From Pedobacter sp. SYSU D00535 (GTDB lineage: Bacteria > Bacteroidota > Bacteroidia > Sphingobacteriales > Sphingobacteriaceae): a stretch of 64,000 nucleotides of DNA. A program made the position numbers and the translations under genes. Position 1 is the first letter of the stretch. The number at the start of each line of letters is the position of its first letter. Shown in pieces: positions 7,641 through 10,948 of the stretch. The DNA lies in contig NZ_JAFEWD010000002.1 of the NCBI RefSeq assembly GCF_017355855.1, forward strand, positions 186,001 to 250,000. Direction: 5' to 3'. The notes beneath the pieces are model-generated. The model had not been told where the DNA came from. It saw nothing but the letters and a program-made list of their open reading frames with translations, and ran no database searches.

Positions 7641-7862
7641 ATGAAAGATAAGTTCTTAATCAAGAAAGGTCTGAAGGTTTGGGAAGCCGGAAGCGTTGTT
7701 ATTGACTCCGTAAGACATATCGTAAAAGATGGTTTCATCAAGTGTAACGCTTCTCTGAATCACTCTGCCTGGAATACTACTATCGAGAAGAAAAAATGCA
7801 GGTTCTGCTTTGCTCGTATGTATTACGAACAAGCGTCATTATTTGAAGGAGGTGTTGCATGA
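7641..7862 (+). CDS. Small hypothetical protein with CRFC motif and QASLF tail
   Basis: The 73-aa protein has no assigned family. A conserved-looking HSAWNTTIEKKKCRFCFARMYYEQ segment has two cysteines (CRFC). The C-terminal QASLF fits the consensus of beta-sliding-clamp-binding peptides (QxxLF). Its stop overlaps the start of the PP-loop gene (GCATGA), so the two are coupled. Confidence 0.65.
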   Translation: MKDKFLIKKGLKVWEAGSVVIDSVRHIVKDGFIKCNASLNHSAWNTTIEKKKCRFCFARMYYEQASLFEGGVA

Positions 7863-9058
7863 GAACGGTTCAGACAAACATGTTCGAAGGGACCAAGCGC
7901 CTGCAGATGAATGACAGCATTGATCTCACTATTCAATCACTTCAGGCCTACGGTCCTAAATACAACTATTGGTGCGTGGCTTGGAGCGGAGGCAAGGACA
8001 GCACTACACTCGTGACCTTAGTGGTTTACCTGATCATCTCAAAGAAGATCCAACCGCCCAAGAAGATTTTCATAATGTATGCAGACACTAGACTCGAACT
8101 TACTCCTCTATTTGTCGCGGCTCAAACCATAATGGATGAACTCGCCGAGCATGGCTACCAGGTTGAAGTTGTAATGGCATCACTAGAGAATCGGTTCTTA
8201 ACCTACATACTAGGCCGGGGAGTTCCACCACCTAACAACGCTACCTTTCGCTGGTGTACATCCCGGATCAAGATCGAGCCGATGCAGTCAGCGCTTGAAG
8301 ATCTGGTAGGAACCCTGGGAGAAAAGGTGTTGATGTTGACAGGCGTTCGTCAGGGAGAGTCAGCAATCCGTGATTCCCGTATTGTTCTCTCTTGCTCCAA
8401 GAACGGAGCCGAGTGCGGGCAGGGCTGGTACCAGGAAACTCTTCCAGAAAGCTTATGCGATACGCTTGCTCCGATCTTGCACTGGCGGGTATGCCACGTA
8501 TGGGAGTGGTTGAAGCATTGGGCTCCTCTTCCTGAATATGGCGACTTCTCTACTGAGCTGATCGCTGATGCTTATGGAGGTGACGAAGCCGAGGAGATCA
8601 ATGCGCGGACTGGTTGTATGGGCTGTCCTCTGACCGACAAAGACACTGCATTGGATAATCTATTGAAGAAAGTAAAGTGGCAATACCTCGAGCCGTTGAA
8701 AAGGCTTCGACCCATATTTCGAGAAATGAGGAAGCCTCAATATCGTTTGCGCAAGACAGGCCTCGAGGAGTCGAACGAGAAGAACAAACAACGCATGGGC
8801 CCATTGACTATGGCCGCTCGAAAAAGATTCTTCAAAGAAATACTATCCATCCAGGAAGATATAAATGCTGGGGCAAAAAGATCTGGGATGCCGTATGTAA
8901 TTCTCCTGAACGCAGAGGAGCAGAAGTTCATAAAGGAATGCTGGGCGAATAACCTGTGGCCGAACAAGTGGACCGGCGAAGAGCCTACTGCTGACACTCC
9001 CATGGATACTGTTTATCCTGATGGATCGATTCAGCCGCTTATACAGTTTGGAGATTAG
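7859..9058 (+). CDS. PP-loop ATPase, PAPS-reductase/DndC-like
   Basis: The 399-aa protein has an N-type PP-loop SGGKDS (residues 43-48), a YADTRLELTPL segment typical of PAPS reductase/DndC proteins, FRWCTSRIKIEP, TGVRQGESAIRDSR, and cysteines in CSKNGAEC and GCMGC that could hold an Fe-S cluster as in DndC. Family members activate substrates by adenylation for sulfur transfer. No dndB, dndD or dndE homologue is present here, so a phosphorothioation role is uncertain; RNA or nucleotide modification is also possible. It belongs to the early/replication operon. Confidence 0.8.
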   Translation: MRTVQTNMFEGTKRLQMNDSIDLTIQSLQAYGPKYNYWCVAWSGGKDSTTLVTLVVYLIISKKIQPPKKIFIMYADTRLELTPLFVAAQTIMDELAEHGYQVEVVMASLENRFLTYILGRGVPPPNNATFRWCTSRIKIEPMQSALEDLVGTLGEKVLMLTGVRQGESAIRDSRIVLSCSKNGAECGQGWYQETLPESLCDTLAPILHWRVCHVWEWLKHWAPLPEYGDFSTELIADAYGGDEAEEINARTGCMGCPLTDKDTALDNLLKKVKWQYLEPLKRLRPIFREMRKPQYRLRKTGLEESNEKNKQRMGPLTMAARKRFFKEILSIQEDINAGAKRSGMPYVILLNAEEQKFIKECWANNLWPNKWTGEEPTADTPMDTVYPDGSIQPLIQFGD

Positions 9059-9061
9059 GAT

Positions 9062-9310
9062 ATGCAGTTACCGTGGTTCAGCGAGTTGGAAGAGGGATTA
9101 AGCATGCAGCAGGTTGCTGAGCTCATAGAAGATTATGTAAACGAGGTGCCCATGTTCTTGATACGCGGTAAATACAAAGTCGGTTCAGCAATGATCCAGT
9201 ATTATGTCGCGCAGTTCTACATCGGCGCCTCTCATTTAAAGCAACCGCAAATAACTATTACAATTAAATCAAATGAAGAAGTATGGCAAGAAAAGATAAA
9301 GCAGGGATAA
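9062..9310 (+). CDS. Hypothetical early protein
   Basis: The 82-aa protein starts 3 bp after the PP-loop gene and overlaps the replication gene by 28 bp. No domain is recognised. Confidence 0.6.
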   Translation: MQLPWFSELEEGLSMQQVAELIEDYVNEVPMFLIRGKYKVGSAMIQYYVAQFYIGASHLKQPQITITIKSNEEVWQEKIKQG

Positions 9311-10290
9311 GCTACTACGCCATGGATGTTGATCATGTCCATAACAAGAAGATCAAGCTTCTAGTGACGGAATATGACTCTCACGGCTACTGGATTTATC
9401 AGTGTCTACTTGCGGCGATTTATCAGCAAAAGGGATACTATTTCGATTTATCGGATGAGGACACTCTCGTATTATTCGCCGCTGATGTCTGTAAAAAACC
9501 TGTAAGTCTGGTTCGGGAAGTAATCGAATGCTGTGTGCGAAGAGATCTTTTTTCCCGGGAAATTTACGAAAATTCCCGGGTACTAACTTCGGACCGCATA
9601 CAGTCTCACTACCTGGTTGCGACCAATGAAAGCAGGAAAAAGGGTAGGGTTATCCGTATAAATACGCGGTACTGGTTGCTTGAAAATACAGAGGAAGAAA
9701 GGGGTGTAGAGCTGTTTGATGGAAACTCCCGGGAAATTCAAACTTTTTCCCGGGAAAAACCCGAAGAATCCCGGGAAAATGGTACACAAATAAAAGAAAA
9801 GGAAATAAAAGAAAATCAAATAAAAGGAAATGAAACAGATGCTCCCTTTCCTTTTCAAGAACTGATTGAAAAAATCCTGAAGAATTTCGGCTTCAATCAA
9901 ATTGCAAATTTTGACAAAGCCCGGGAAGCTTCAGCTTTTTTAAACTGCCTTGCTCTTTCAAGTCGAGTGGAGCTTTTCGAGTCACAGATGCAAGCCTATT
10001 TCGAATATAAAAAAATTTCCGGCGGGCAAAATTTCATTCACAGCTTCAAGAACTTCCTAGGCTCGCACGAAAAGCTTTTCGAGGACGGAGCCTGGAACGC
10101 GGAGAACTGGATCAAAAAACTGGAAACTGAAAAATTAAAATCAAATGAAAGACCTCATTCAAATACCACAAATGGATTCCAAACTCGCGAGGAGAGAAGA
10201 CAGTCAGTTAATGAGTTGGGTAGCTCAGCCAGACAAGTACTTAGAAGCATTGCGAGTAAGTACAACGGAGGACATACTGATGAGCACTAG
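9283..10290 (+). CDS. Lin1244/Lin1753-type replication initiation protein
   Basis: The 335-aa protein's N-terminal about 100 residues (ISYYAMDVDHVHNKKIKLLVTEYDSHGYWIY and following) match the Lin1244/Lin1753-like domain (DUF4373) found in phage DnaD-like replication proteins. The middle is low-complexity and contains repeats of Ser-Arg-Glu spaced seven residues apart, which are the coding readout of DNA iterons at 9554-9775. The C-terminal region (about 185-260) resembles a DnaD-like helical domain. It likely binds the origin inside its own gene, as lambda O does. Confidence 0.75.
   Translation: MARKDKAGISYYAMDVDHVHNKKIKLLVTEYDSHGYWIYQCLLAAIYQQKGYYFDLSDEDTLVLFAADVCKKPVSLVREVIECCVRRDLFSREIYENSRVLTSDRIQSHYLVATNESRKKGRVIRINTRYWLLENTEEERGVELFDGNSREIQTFSREKPEESRENGTQIKEKEIKENQIKGNETDAPFPFQELIEKILKNFGFNQIANFDKAREASAFLNCLALSSRVELFESQMQAYFEYKKISGGQNFIHSFKNFLGSHEKLFEDGAWNAENWIKKLETEKLKSNERPHSNTTNGFQTREERRQSVNELGSSARQVLRSIASKYNGGHTDEH
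9551..9835. other. Candidate phage replication origin: CCCGGG iterons plus AT-rich stretch
   Basis: CCCGGG palindromes, mostly within TCCCGGGAAA, begin at 9554, 9575, 9728, 9749 and 9770, with exact 21-bp spacing inside each cluster; a sixth is at 9920. Directly after the second cluster lies a purine-rich, AT-rich run (about 9784-9835) with repeated AAATAAAAGAAAA. Iterons at two-turn spacing next to a melting-prone tract inside an initiator gene is the architecture of lambdoid origins. The assignment is inference. Confidence 0.65.
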
Positions 10291-10948
10291 TCCTTCCCTG
10301 GCCAAGGTTAGAAGGGAATTAGGAGATGACGGAAATCTAGCGATTAAAGCGATCCTCACGATTTTACTGGAGGAGGTTATCAATTTTCTAAACGTTGGCA
10401 AGACGATGAACGATCGTCAGATTGCAACAACAATAAATTTGATCATTGATGATTATTCTCAGTTGAAACCAGATGACTTTAAGCTTTGCTTCAAAAACGG
10501 AATGAAGGGCAAGTATGGCAAATCTTATGACCGTTTGGATGGGAATGTGATCTTCGAGTGGCTGGAGCAATATCTCTATGAAAAGGAAAGTGAGATTGAG
10601 ATGATTCGGCGGAACGAAAACAGCAGGCTAAAAAGGAACTCTGACTTTGCTATCGGCCAGGAAGGGACAACCATGCCGGACTGGTTCAAGATGCCCGACA
10701 AAAAGCAAAGCGAAATAAAGTCCTCAGAGCCTCGCAAGATGTCGGATGAGCAAAGACTATTCAACGAGTTAATAAATCGATTTGACGGGGAGTTTAAGCG
10801 ACGCGGCGTGGAATCTGGAGGGGGAAGGTTTGTTAAGTTCTACGGACGGATGATGAACGTCGAAGAATACGTGAATTTCAAAGCTGCTCAGATAGATCGA
10901 ATCATCAAGCTTGATCGCTTTTTAACAGCTCGATCTAAGAGGAAATAA
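10145..10948 (+). CDS. Putative replication-associated protein
   Basis: The 267-aa protein overlaps the replication gene by 146 bp in another frame. The first in-frame ATG at 10145 may be early, and later starts cannot be excluded. The N-terminal half contains PDKYLEALRVST and LAKVRRELGDDGNLAIKAIL, a pattern seen in Bacteroidetes phage proteins next to replication initiators. The position of a helicase loader suggests that role, but no AAA+ motif is visible, so function stays unassigned. Confidence 0.65.
   Translation: MKDLIQIPQMDSKLARREDSQLMSWVAQPDKYLEALRVSTTEDILMSTSPSLAKVRRELGDDGNLAIKAILTILLEEVINFLNVGKTMNDRQIATTINLIIDDYSQLKPDDFKLCFKNGMKGKYGKSYDRLDGNVIFEWLEQYLYEKESEIEMIRRNENSRLKRNSDFAIGQEGTTMPDWFKMPDKKQSEIKSSEPRKMSDEQRLFNELINRFDGEFKRRGVESGGGRFVKFYGRMMNVEEYVNFKAAQIDRIIKLDRFLTARSKRK

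Follow-up and report, generated by a model that had tools for sequence, protein, structure and literature searches.

Can a single stretch of DNA encode a phage replication initiator and also serve as the origin at which this initiator acts? The question is raised by a gene within a 64,000-nucleotide stretch of the genome of Pedobacter sp. SYSU D00535 (the window), in which the palindrome CCCGGG recurs at regular distances. A first-pass annotation had read these sites as origin-like iterons inside the initiator gene, placed as in the lambda O gene. Judged from the window, its relatives and a wider phage family, the gene very probably codes for a phage replication initiator and at the same time holds the in-gene iteron origin of the phage.

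The initiator gene and its dyads

The encoded protein matches the Pfam family PF14297 (Lin1244_N/DUF4373) over residues 11-106 with 77.9 bits against a cut-off of 25, which places it among the Lin1244_N/DUF4373 phage initiators, and it matches phrog_2562 of PHROGs, annotated as 'replication initiation protein', with an E value of 1.3e-32. Upstream, Pfam and PHROGs identify a RecT annealing protein gene and an exonuclease gene, and recombination and loader genes form the neighbourhood of DUF4373 initiators. Just 5′ of the initiator gene, in the early region of the prophage, stands a gene with a PAPS-reductase domain (window positions 7859-9058; phrog_12882, E 2.3e-175). The 3′ end is overlapped by an open reading frame at 10145-10948, which matches DUF6633 weakly, below the cut-off, and phrog_35728 of unknown function; in Listeria B054 and Bacillus Pavlov a gene annotated as a DnaC-like loader occupies this position. 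Among named genomes, close relatives of the N-terminal part are found in Hufsiella ginkgonis and Desertivirga xinjiangensis, both Sphingobacteriaceae. The C-terminal part has a different distribution: three putative initiators (L007, L010 and L011) match only residues 170-294, 183-286 and 192-323 of the window protein, respectively, and in none of the three did Pfam detect Lin1244_N. Since the C-terminal part is common to these proteins, modules seem to have been exchanged between initiators at the linker that would encode the origin.

CCCGGG starts at positions 9554, 9575, 9728, 9749, 9770 and 9920, exactly as annotated. The steps of 21, 153, 21, 21 and 150 bp confirm the strict 21-bp period within both clusters, and all six sites share a single codon phase. 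The window holds 13 copies, compared with an average of 7.2 in whole-window shuffles; six fall within the 1,008-bp initiator gene and seven within the remaining 62,992 bp. When the synonymous codons of the gene were shuffled 20,000 times, we obtained at most four CCCGGG sites and never three pairs at 21 bp, and six of its eight CGG arginine codons are those inside the sites. The repeat turned out to be longer than the six-base palindrome first noted, as the CCCGGG core extends to the 10-bp dyad TTCCCGGGAA, of which two copies are perfect, three match at 9 of 10 positions and the last (9918-9927) at 8 of 10. SRE was said to recur every seven residues; the seven-residue step exists only within the two clusters, and the six sites encode SRE, SRV, SRE, SRE, SRE and ARE.

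The AT-rich purine run annotated behind the sites is likewise real. It extends from about 9787 to 9835, with 23% GC and 80-85% purine (40-bp windows starting at 9780 and 9800), and is periodic, yielding TRF rows of period 15 and 5 and matches at 22 of 30 positions at a lag of five bases. In the present analysis we define an in-gene origin layout of DUF4373 genes, which is not an established family, by dyads 21 or 33 bp apart in the linker, the last of them most commonly, though not always, centred 12 bp ahead of an A/G-rich tract with a five-base step. In the window the linker dyads are present (9726, 9747 and 9768, 21 bp apart), as is the stepped tract, with units AAATA/AAAGA and not TAAAG. 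The distance between the two is 14 bp instead of 12 bp, and 14 bp was also counted in the sequence of a relative, L001.

Judged from this arrangement (Table 1), the working origin most likely consists of the three sites at 9726-9777 and the tract at 9787-9835, and for these the iteron reading is supported. The site at 9918, which had been included, is of doubtful role and may be a chance occurrence. A further two dyads, 21 bp apart, lie at 9552-9582, where the DNA-binding domain is encoded; the origin cluster follows 153 bp downstream. This pair is possibly an extra binding or control site; such dyads are uncommon, in that the linker repeat word also occurs in domain codons in 8 of the 72 DUF4373 genes with linker repeat words, the window gene included. 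In the genome as a whole TTCCCGGGAA occurs at 15 places, two of them in the initiator gene, compared with 8 for the backwards word, and a genome-wide role of the dyad was rejected. The GC skew, followed in 2-kb steps, has no turning point near the initiator gene.

Table 1. Features of the initiator gene and its candidate origin (positions in the window)
Feature	Position	Strand	Basis or remark
Replication initiator gene, Lin1244_N/DUF4373 family	9283..10290	+	335 aa, 1,008 bp; ORF call
Codons of the predicted N-terminal winged-helix domain (residues 1-120)	9283..9642	+	AlphaFold2 model, mean pLDDT 89
Dyad TTCCCGGGAA, upstream pair, site 1	9552..9561	.	Inside domain codons; word identical to linker sites
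Dyad TTCCCGGGTA, upstream pair, site 2	9573..9582	.	21 bp after site 1
Iteron 1 of candidate origin, CTCCCGGGAA	9726..9735	.	
Iteron 2 of candidate origin, TTCCCGGGAA	9747..9756	.	21 bp after iteron 1
Iteron 3 of candidate origin, ATCCCGGGAA	9768..9777	.	21 bp after iteron 2; centre 14 bp before tract
A/G-rich tract with five-base step (CAAATAAAAGAAAAGGAAATAAAAGAAAATC...), likely unwinding element	9787..9835	+	TRF, lag-5, GC
Codons of C-terminal part	9838..10287	+	Common to putative initiators without Lin1244_N (L007, L010, L011)
Weak sixth site, AGCCCGGGAA	9918..9927	.	Past tract; 8/10 match

Frames and spacings in relatives and in the family

As all six sites lie in one frame, the window alone cannot separate a repeat of the DNA from a repeat of the protein. 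The relatives, in which the dyad is also read in other codon frames, speak strongly against a pure protein repeat, as far as sequence comparison can tell. L001 (53% identical; its DNA is the same as that of the Hufsiella ginkgonis gene) carries three copies of TTCCCGGGAA exactly 21 bp apart that encode SRE. L002 (51% identical) has two copies of CCCGGGAA 33 bp apart, which encode PGK and PGN in a frame that differs from that of the window, and L005 (Desertivirga xinjiangensis, same genus, 42% identical) has TTCCCCGGAA and TTCCGCGGAA 22 bp apart in two frames. Related dyads also precede the tract of L024. The conservation of spacing, which the annotation had proposed as a check, thus takes the form of the same or a near dyad at 21, 22 or 33 bp. 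Exact pairs of TCCCGGGAA 21-33 bp apart are confined to 2 of 301 genomes of the family scanned, namely the window's own, in the initiator gene, and that of Hufsiella, in the relative of this gene and at a further place (27 bp apart); the reversed TCCCGGGAA control pattern gave no spaced pair in the 301 genomes. The L005 genome scores no such pair because its dyads differ. The clade of the window uses TTCCNNGGAA-type dyads, whereas the commonest dyad of the DUF4373 family is TTAATGTNNACATTAA.

DUF4373 genes were gathered from viral contigs, genomes and eight named phages, the latter being 8 of the 19 phage records listed; six plasmid records were left out. The set excludes open reading frames below 120 aa, domain hits with E above 1e-8 or a start past model position 15, and duplicate proteins; 334 gene hits gave 258 unique proteins and 172 clusters at 70% identity. 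Exact repeats of at least nine bases were listed over the whole gene, with tract words excluded. Repeats 21 bp apart occur in 42 clusters (synonymous-shuffle mean 9.0), 33 bp apart in 20 (6.2) and 42 bp apart in 15 (3.3), and distances of 18, 24, 27, 30, 36 and 39 bp in 1, 3, 2, 0, 3 and 2 clusters, respectively. The out-of-frame distances 22, 31 and 32 bp are found in 4, 4 and 5 clusters (shuffle means 0.6, 1.1 and 0.5). Multiples of three account for 145 of the 218 cluster-distance entries, and 77 of these 145 are 21, 33 or 42 bp. Among 203 neighbouring open reading frames of at least 200 aa from the same loci, two have a 21-bp and four a 33-bp repeat pair. Of 241 repeat pairs, only 112 are centred within the stretch 5-50 residues past the domain, and 27 of the 172 clusters have neither an exact repeat at 21, 32, 33 or 42 bp nor a tract score of at least 20. 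Synonymous shuffles erase the identity left by recent duplication, so that the excess of direct repeats could partly reflect duplication and not selection, and the clusters have a common ancestry, so that the counts are not independent events. For these reasons the weight of the argument is placed on reading frames, dyad symmetry, favoured offsets and the non-coding copies.

The most frequent iteron, the dyad TTAATGTNNACATTAA, has 210 sites at 11 or more of 14 positions compared with 115 in shuffles. Adjacent sites are 21 bp (53), 33 bp (39) or 32 bp (6) apart, and any other distance occurs at most four times. The sites are distributed over the three frames as 196, 7 and 7; therefore, nearly all copies stand in the ancestral frame and a minority do not. 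The position of the dyads relative to the tract was determined in 97 genes, selected from the 132 clusters with a tract score of at least 20 by a tract starting with CAAAG; the window gene, whose tract starts with CAAAT, lies outside this set. The last TTAATGTNNACATTAA dyad, found in 59 of the 97, is 12 bp from the tract in 35 genes, 13 bp in 2, and 45 or 33 bp in 15. When dyads of at least 6/7 were scanned without a motif, offsets of 12, 33, 45, 54 and 66 bp before the tract were seen in 25, 14, 29, 6 and 4 of the 97 genes (shuffle means 4.2, 3.0, 5.0, 0.8 and 0.6), and no other offset between 9 and 89 bp was seen in more than three genes. The favoured offsets thus equal 12 bp plus 0, 21, 33, 42 or 54 bp. 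Based on these sequences, the layout of in-gene dyads and tract appears to recur in many phages of two phyla, Bacteroidota and Firmicutes.

The five-base step and its non-coding copies

The five-base step was scored as the lag-5 identity in the best 30-base window, for 171 of the 172 clusters. The mean of the 171 DUF4373 genes is 21.9, compared with 15.9 in shuffles, and 79 of them reach 24 or more where 0.7 are expected; none of the 203 neighbouring open reading frames does. Lag 10 comes next (49 genes, 0.1 expected), and the remaining lags from 2 to 12 each account for at most seven genes. In the 97 genes anchored at CAAAG the tract consensus reads CAAAG TAAAG TAAAG GAAAG TAAAG TAAA. The first base of the unit is T in 65-86% of the genes at columns 5, 10, 20 and 25. 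At columns 15 and 30, where a T would complete an in-frame TAA stop, this share falls to 8% and 4%.

The tract is also present in named phages whose DUF4373 initiators have the same N-terminal domain (Listeria B054, Bacillus Pavlov, Lactobacillus iLp84, Paenibacillus PG1, Bacteroides BKO1-TP3 and others). The eight regions, drawn from 19 records and with Listeria, Latilactobacillus, Enterococcus, Bacillus, Bacteroides, Lactobacillus, Dorea and Paenibacillus as hosts, all score 20-24 at lag 5; four have TTAATGTNNACATTAA-type sites and four have other or no scored repeats. The tract of Bacteroides phage BKO1-TP3 is nearly identical to that of the window. A tract scan of viral contigs yielded at least 80 loci. 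Among the matches listed, 75 lie in open reading frames matching the DUF4373 profile, two border on the end of the available sequence, one is unassigned and two lack a read-through frame. All 78 coding copies among these matches use a single frame, a count that carries no weight here, as the pattern scanned for would give TAA stops in either of the other frames. The encoded peptides vary widely (QIKEKEIKE, QSKVKESKV, QTKQNKTKA, HSIAQHSIA). Of the genes with the C-terminal part and without Lin1244_N, L007 scores 22/30 at lag 5 and L010 and L011 each 15/30; the purine tract of L007 stands after 11/22-bp repeats.

A run of (TAAAG)n contains TAA in every frame and consequently cannot be protein-coding on that strand. 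Scanning for CAAAG(TAAAG)3 gave 14 loci, 10 of them distinct, and in 13 of the 14, as expected from the pattern, no same-strand open reading frame of at least 60 aa crosses the tract. Six of the 14 records, many of which are short fragments, hold a DUF4373 gene (one below the cut-off). Repeats precede the non-coding tract at 6 of the 10 distinct loci. In L468 the DUF4373 gene has two in-gene repeats 21 bp apart and no tract, and a non-coding block 3′ of the gene combines four repeats at steps of 21-22 bp with seven TAAAG units, its tract starting 269 bp past the gene. This block (L468:1915-3000) carries the repeat word of the adjoining DUF4373 gene and, judged by eye, looks like a decayed copy of the linker region of that gene. 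In L404 the linker of the DUF4373 gene is devoid of repeats and tract, and a non-coding block about 0.7 kb away holds 20-22-bp repeats and five TAAAG units. L461, L462, L465 and L459/L466 have 8-mer repeats at 31 (one pair), 21, 21 and 32 bp, respectively. No clear repeats precede the tract in L423, L458 (four near-identical loci), L467 and L384, i.e., 4 of the 10 distinct loci; in L384 the DUF4373 gene ends within the tract. An even-centred dyad of at least 6/7 at exactly 12 bp was found at none of the 10 distinct loci; at a threshold of 5/7 and with base-centred dyads allowed, a dyad at 12 or 12.5 bp is present in five of the six repeat-bearing loci, L462 being the exception. In these copies spacings of 20, 22, 31 and 32 bp occur and the stop-avoiding G is absent, the pattern expected of a DNA element that has been bent to the reading frame.

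Could the SRE heptads nevertheless have arisen by codon duplication in a disordered linker, as a repeat of the protein with no role in the DNA? Besides the shared frame of the six window sites, the 21-bp step, which is also seven residues, and the multiples of three among the family distances (145/218) would fit, as would the predicted lack of structure in the linker (full-length model, mean pLDDT 45, built from only five sequences and a hint at most). One frame also holds 196 of the 210 TTAATGTNNACATTAA sites, which we count against the DNA origin reading. However, the relatives conserve the dyad independently of the frame, out-of-frame distances occur in coding (22, 31 and 32 bp) and in non-coding copies (20, 22, 31 and 32 bp), and the elements found at preferred offsets are dyads and not plain repeats. 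A protein repeat without conserved DNA spacing had been named beforehand as the result that would contradict the annotation; given the frame changes, the out-of-frame spacings and the non-coding copies it was rejected, and we consider it highly improbable. CCCGGG is also a common restriction site, and the clusters might accordingly be restriction or methylation marks. Yet the family changes the word while spacing and dyad symmetry stay, and the genome has just 15 copies of TTCCCGGGAA, against 8 of the backwards word; this explanation was likewise rejected, its likelihood being next to nil.

Two further explanations accept a role in the DNA for the dyads and place the origin, or the function of the tract, elsewhere. 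Initiator-binding sites are often autoregulatory as well, and the dyads might form an operator at which the initiator or a phage repressor regulates the gene or operon; the pair at 9552-9582, in domain codons and away from the tract, would suit this role. We regard it as unlikely, since the sites lie 0.3-0.5 kb inside the gene at a preferred distance from an AT-rich tract, and repeats and tract stay together in non-coding copies, a pairing that an operator does not need. Alternatively, the dyads alone might act in the DNA and the tract be a feature of the mRNA, which is purine-rich, or of the protein, as most copies encode a basic linker of the KVKES kind. The chance of this appears slim in view of the five-base step (79 genes versus 0.7 in synonymous shuffles, 0 of 203 neighbouring open reading frames), the avoidance of T exactly where TAA would arise, the non-coding (TAAAG)n runs after repeats at 6 of 10 distinct loci and the widely different peptides.

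Comparison with known origins and a proposed mechanism

That an origin can lie within its initiator gene is a known principle; the part that appears to be new is the conserved geometry together with the five-base tract. The lambda O gene, with which the locus had been compared, is indeed alike in having repeats and an AT-rich tract mid-gene (NC_001416 annotation), and the available part of PMC7466680 places iterons and, behind them, an AT-rich tract in the central part of O. It differs in that the iterons start 20, 24 and 23 bp apart and the gene scores 17/30 at lag 5, i.e., is not periodic; its tract starts ACACAAAAG after iteron 4. Neither Pfam nor PHROGs matched the initiator to a lambda O family at E ≤0.01.

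An equally close comparison is offered by the initiators of RepA_N plasmids. According to the portion of PMC5703833 at hand, a domain of about 120 N-terminal residues binds boxes in the central part of the rep gene, the linker encoded by the origin DNA can be dispensed with and the C-terminal domain is variable; in the accessible text of PMC7145576, the iterons are mostly semi-palindromic direct repeats. As far as these sources go, RepA_N initiators such as those of pSK41 and pLS32 (RepN) appear to resemble the window gene in the arrangement of N-terminal domain, in-gene boxes at the linker and variable C-terminus, and the window gene has the repeats inside the rep coding region that are typical of them. 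In pLS32 RepN the repeats likewise lie past the N-terminal domain; unlike those of the window gene they are 33, 23, 30 and 11 bp apart, and the AT-rich stretch is without a five-base step (lag-5 15/30). PMC1626470, by its available part, is about a different plasmid family.

When the N-terminal domain was compared with 338 re-aligned PDB chains, the best four were 4pql, 4pt7, 5kbj and 4pta (Z 6.1-6.4 over 87-89 residues), of which we take 4pql and 5kbj to be structures of RepA_N plasmid initiators. As the next row is another DNA-binding domain with Z 5.8, rows within 1 being tied, and the best Foldseek E value is 0.68, the predicted fold kinship with RepA_N initiators is suggestive only. The chains 4PT7 and 4PTA are S. 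aureus RepA_N structures, as stated in the part of PMC7145576 consulted. A PDB sequence search with the domain profile returned one chain at E 0.43, which is uninformative. In Pfam (E ≤0.01) PF14297 is the sole match of the initiator, and the RepA_N family PF06970 does not match it; no PF06970 match was obtained in its own and the relatives' genomes (41) either, a negative that is uninformative because no control genome matched, although pLS32 matched in the same search.

We infer that the initiator itself recognises the dyads, that the tract is the part that melts and that copying of the phage genome begins here. The N-terminal winged-helix domain would bind the 10-bp dyads (TTCCCGGGAA in the window), probably as dimers; placed two helical turns apart in the codons of a flexible linker, the dyads would all lie on one face of the helix. 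The A/G-rich tract, 14 bp past the last dyad, would then open, and a helicase would be loaded there via the C-terminal part or a partner. As for the five-base step, we conjecture that its units are recognised as single strands. Unwinding elements contain short repeated motifs beside the initiator sites that are bound single-stranded, such as the DnaA-trio and the RctB motif (PMC10797057, in the part available), and the Rep 13-mers are comparable repeated single-stranded motifs (PMC4081077, likewise in part). The DUF4373 tract shares with them, as these excerpts describe them, the short repeated motifs next to initiator sites; it differs in its step of five, its unit TAAAG and its location within a coding gene, and is known from sequence.

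It is conceivable, albeit on balance doubtful, that (TAAAG)n-type tracts are a new class of unwinding element, namely a five-nucleotide code for loading on single strands that is read stepwise by the initiator or helicase loader and kept by phages of both Bacteroidota and Firmicutes. What varies with the recognition domain would then be the dyad words alone, and the origin would normally lie in the gene and sometimes be free and non-coding. Searches of the literature gave nothing on replication by title for DUF4373 and no paper for Lin1244, and a search with TAAAGTAAAG gave none on phage origins by title among the matches listed. The five-base tract and its geometry, and an in-gene origin in this phage family, might thus be undescribed in the literature searched, which leaves subscription journals mostly uncovered.

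Taken together, dyads 21 or 33 bp apart, a gap of about 12 bp and a five-base A/G tract provide a simple and testable rule for locating origins, applicable to a large phage family in two phyla, many members of which are known from metagenomes only. Coding sequence and replication origin apparently share one stretch of DNA, and coding has left its marks on the latter, with 33 bp in place of 31-32 bp and G for T where a stop would form. The five-base step raises the question of how phage origins capture single strands.
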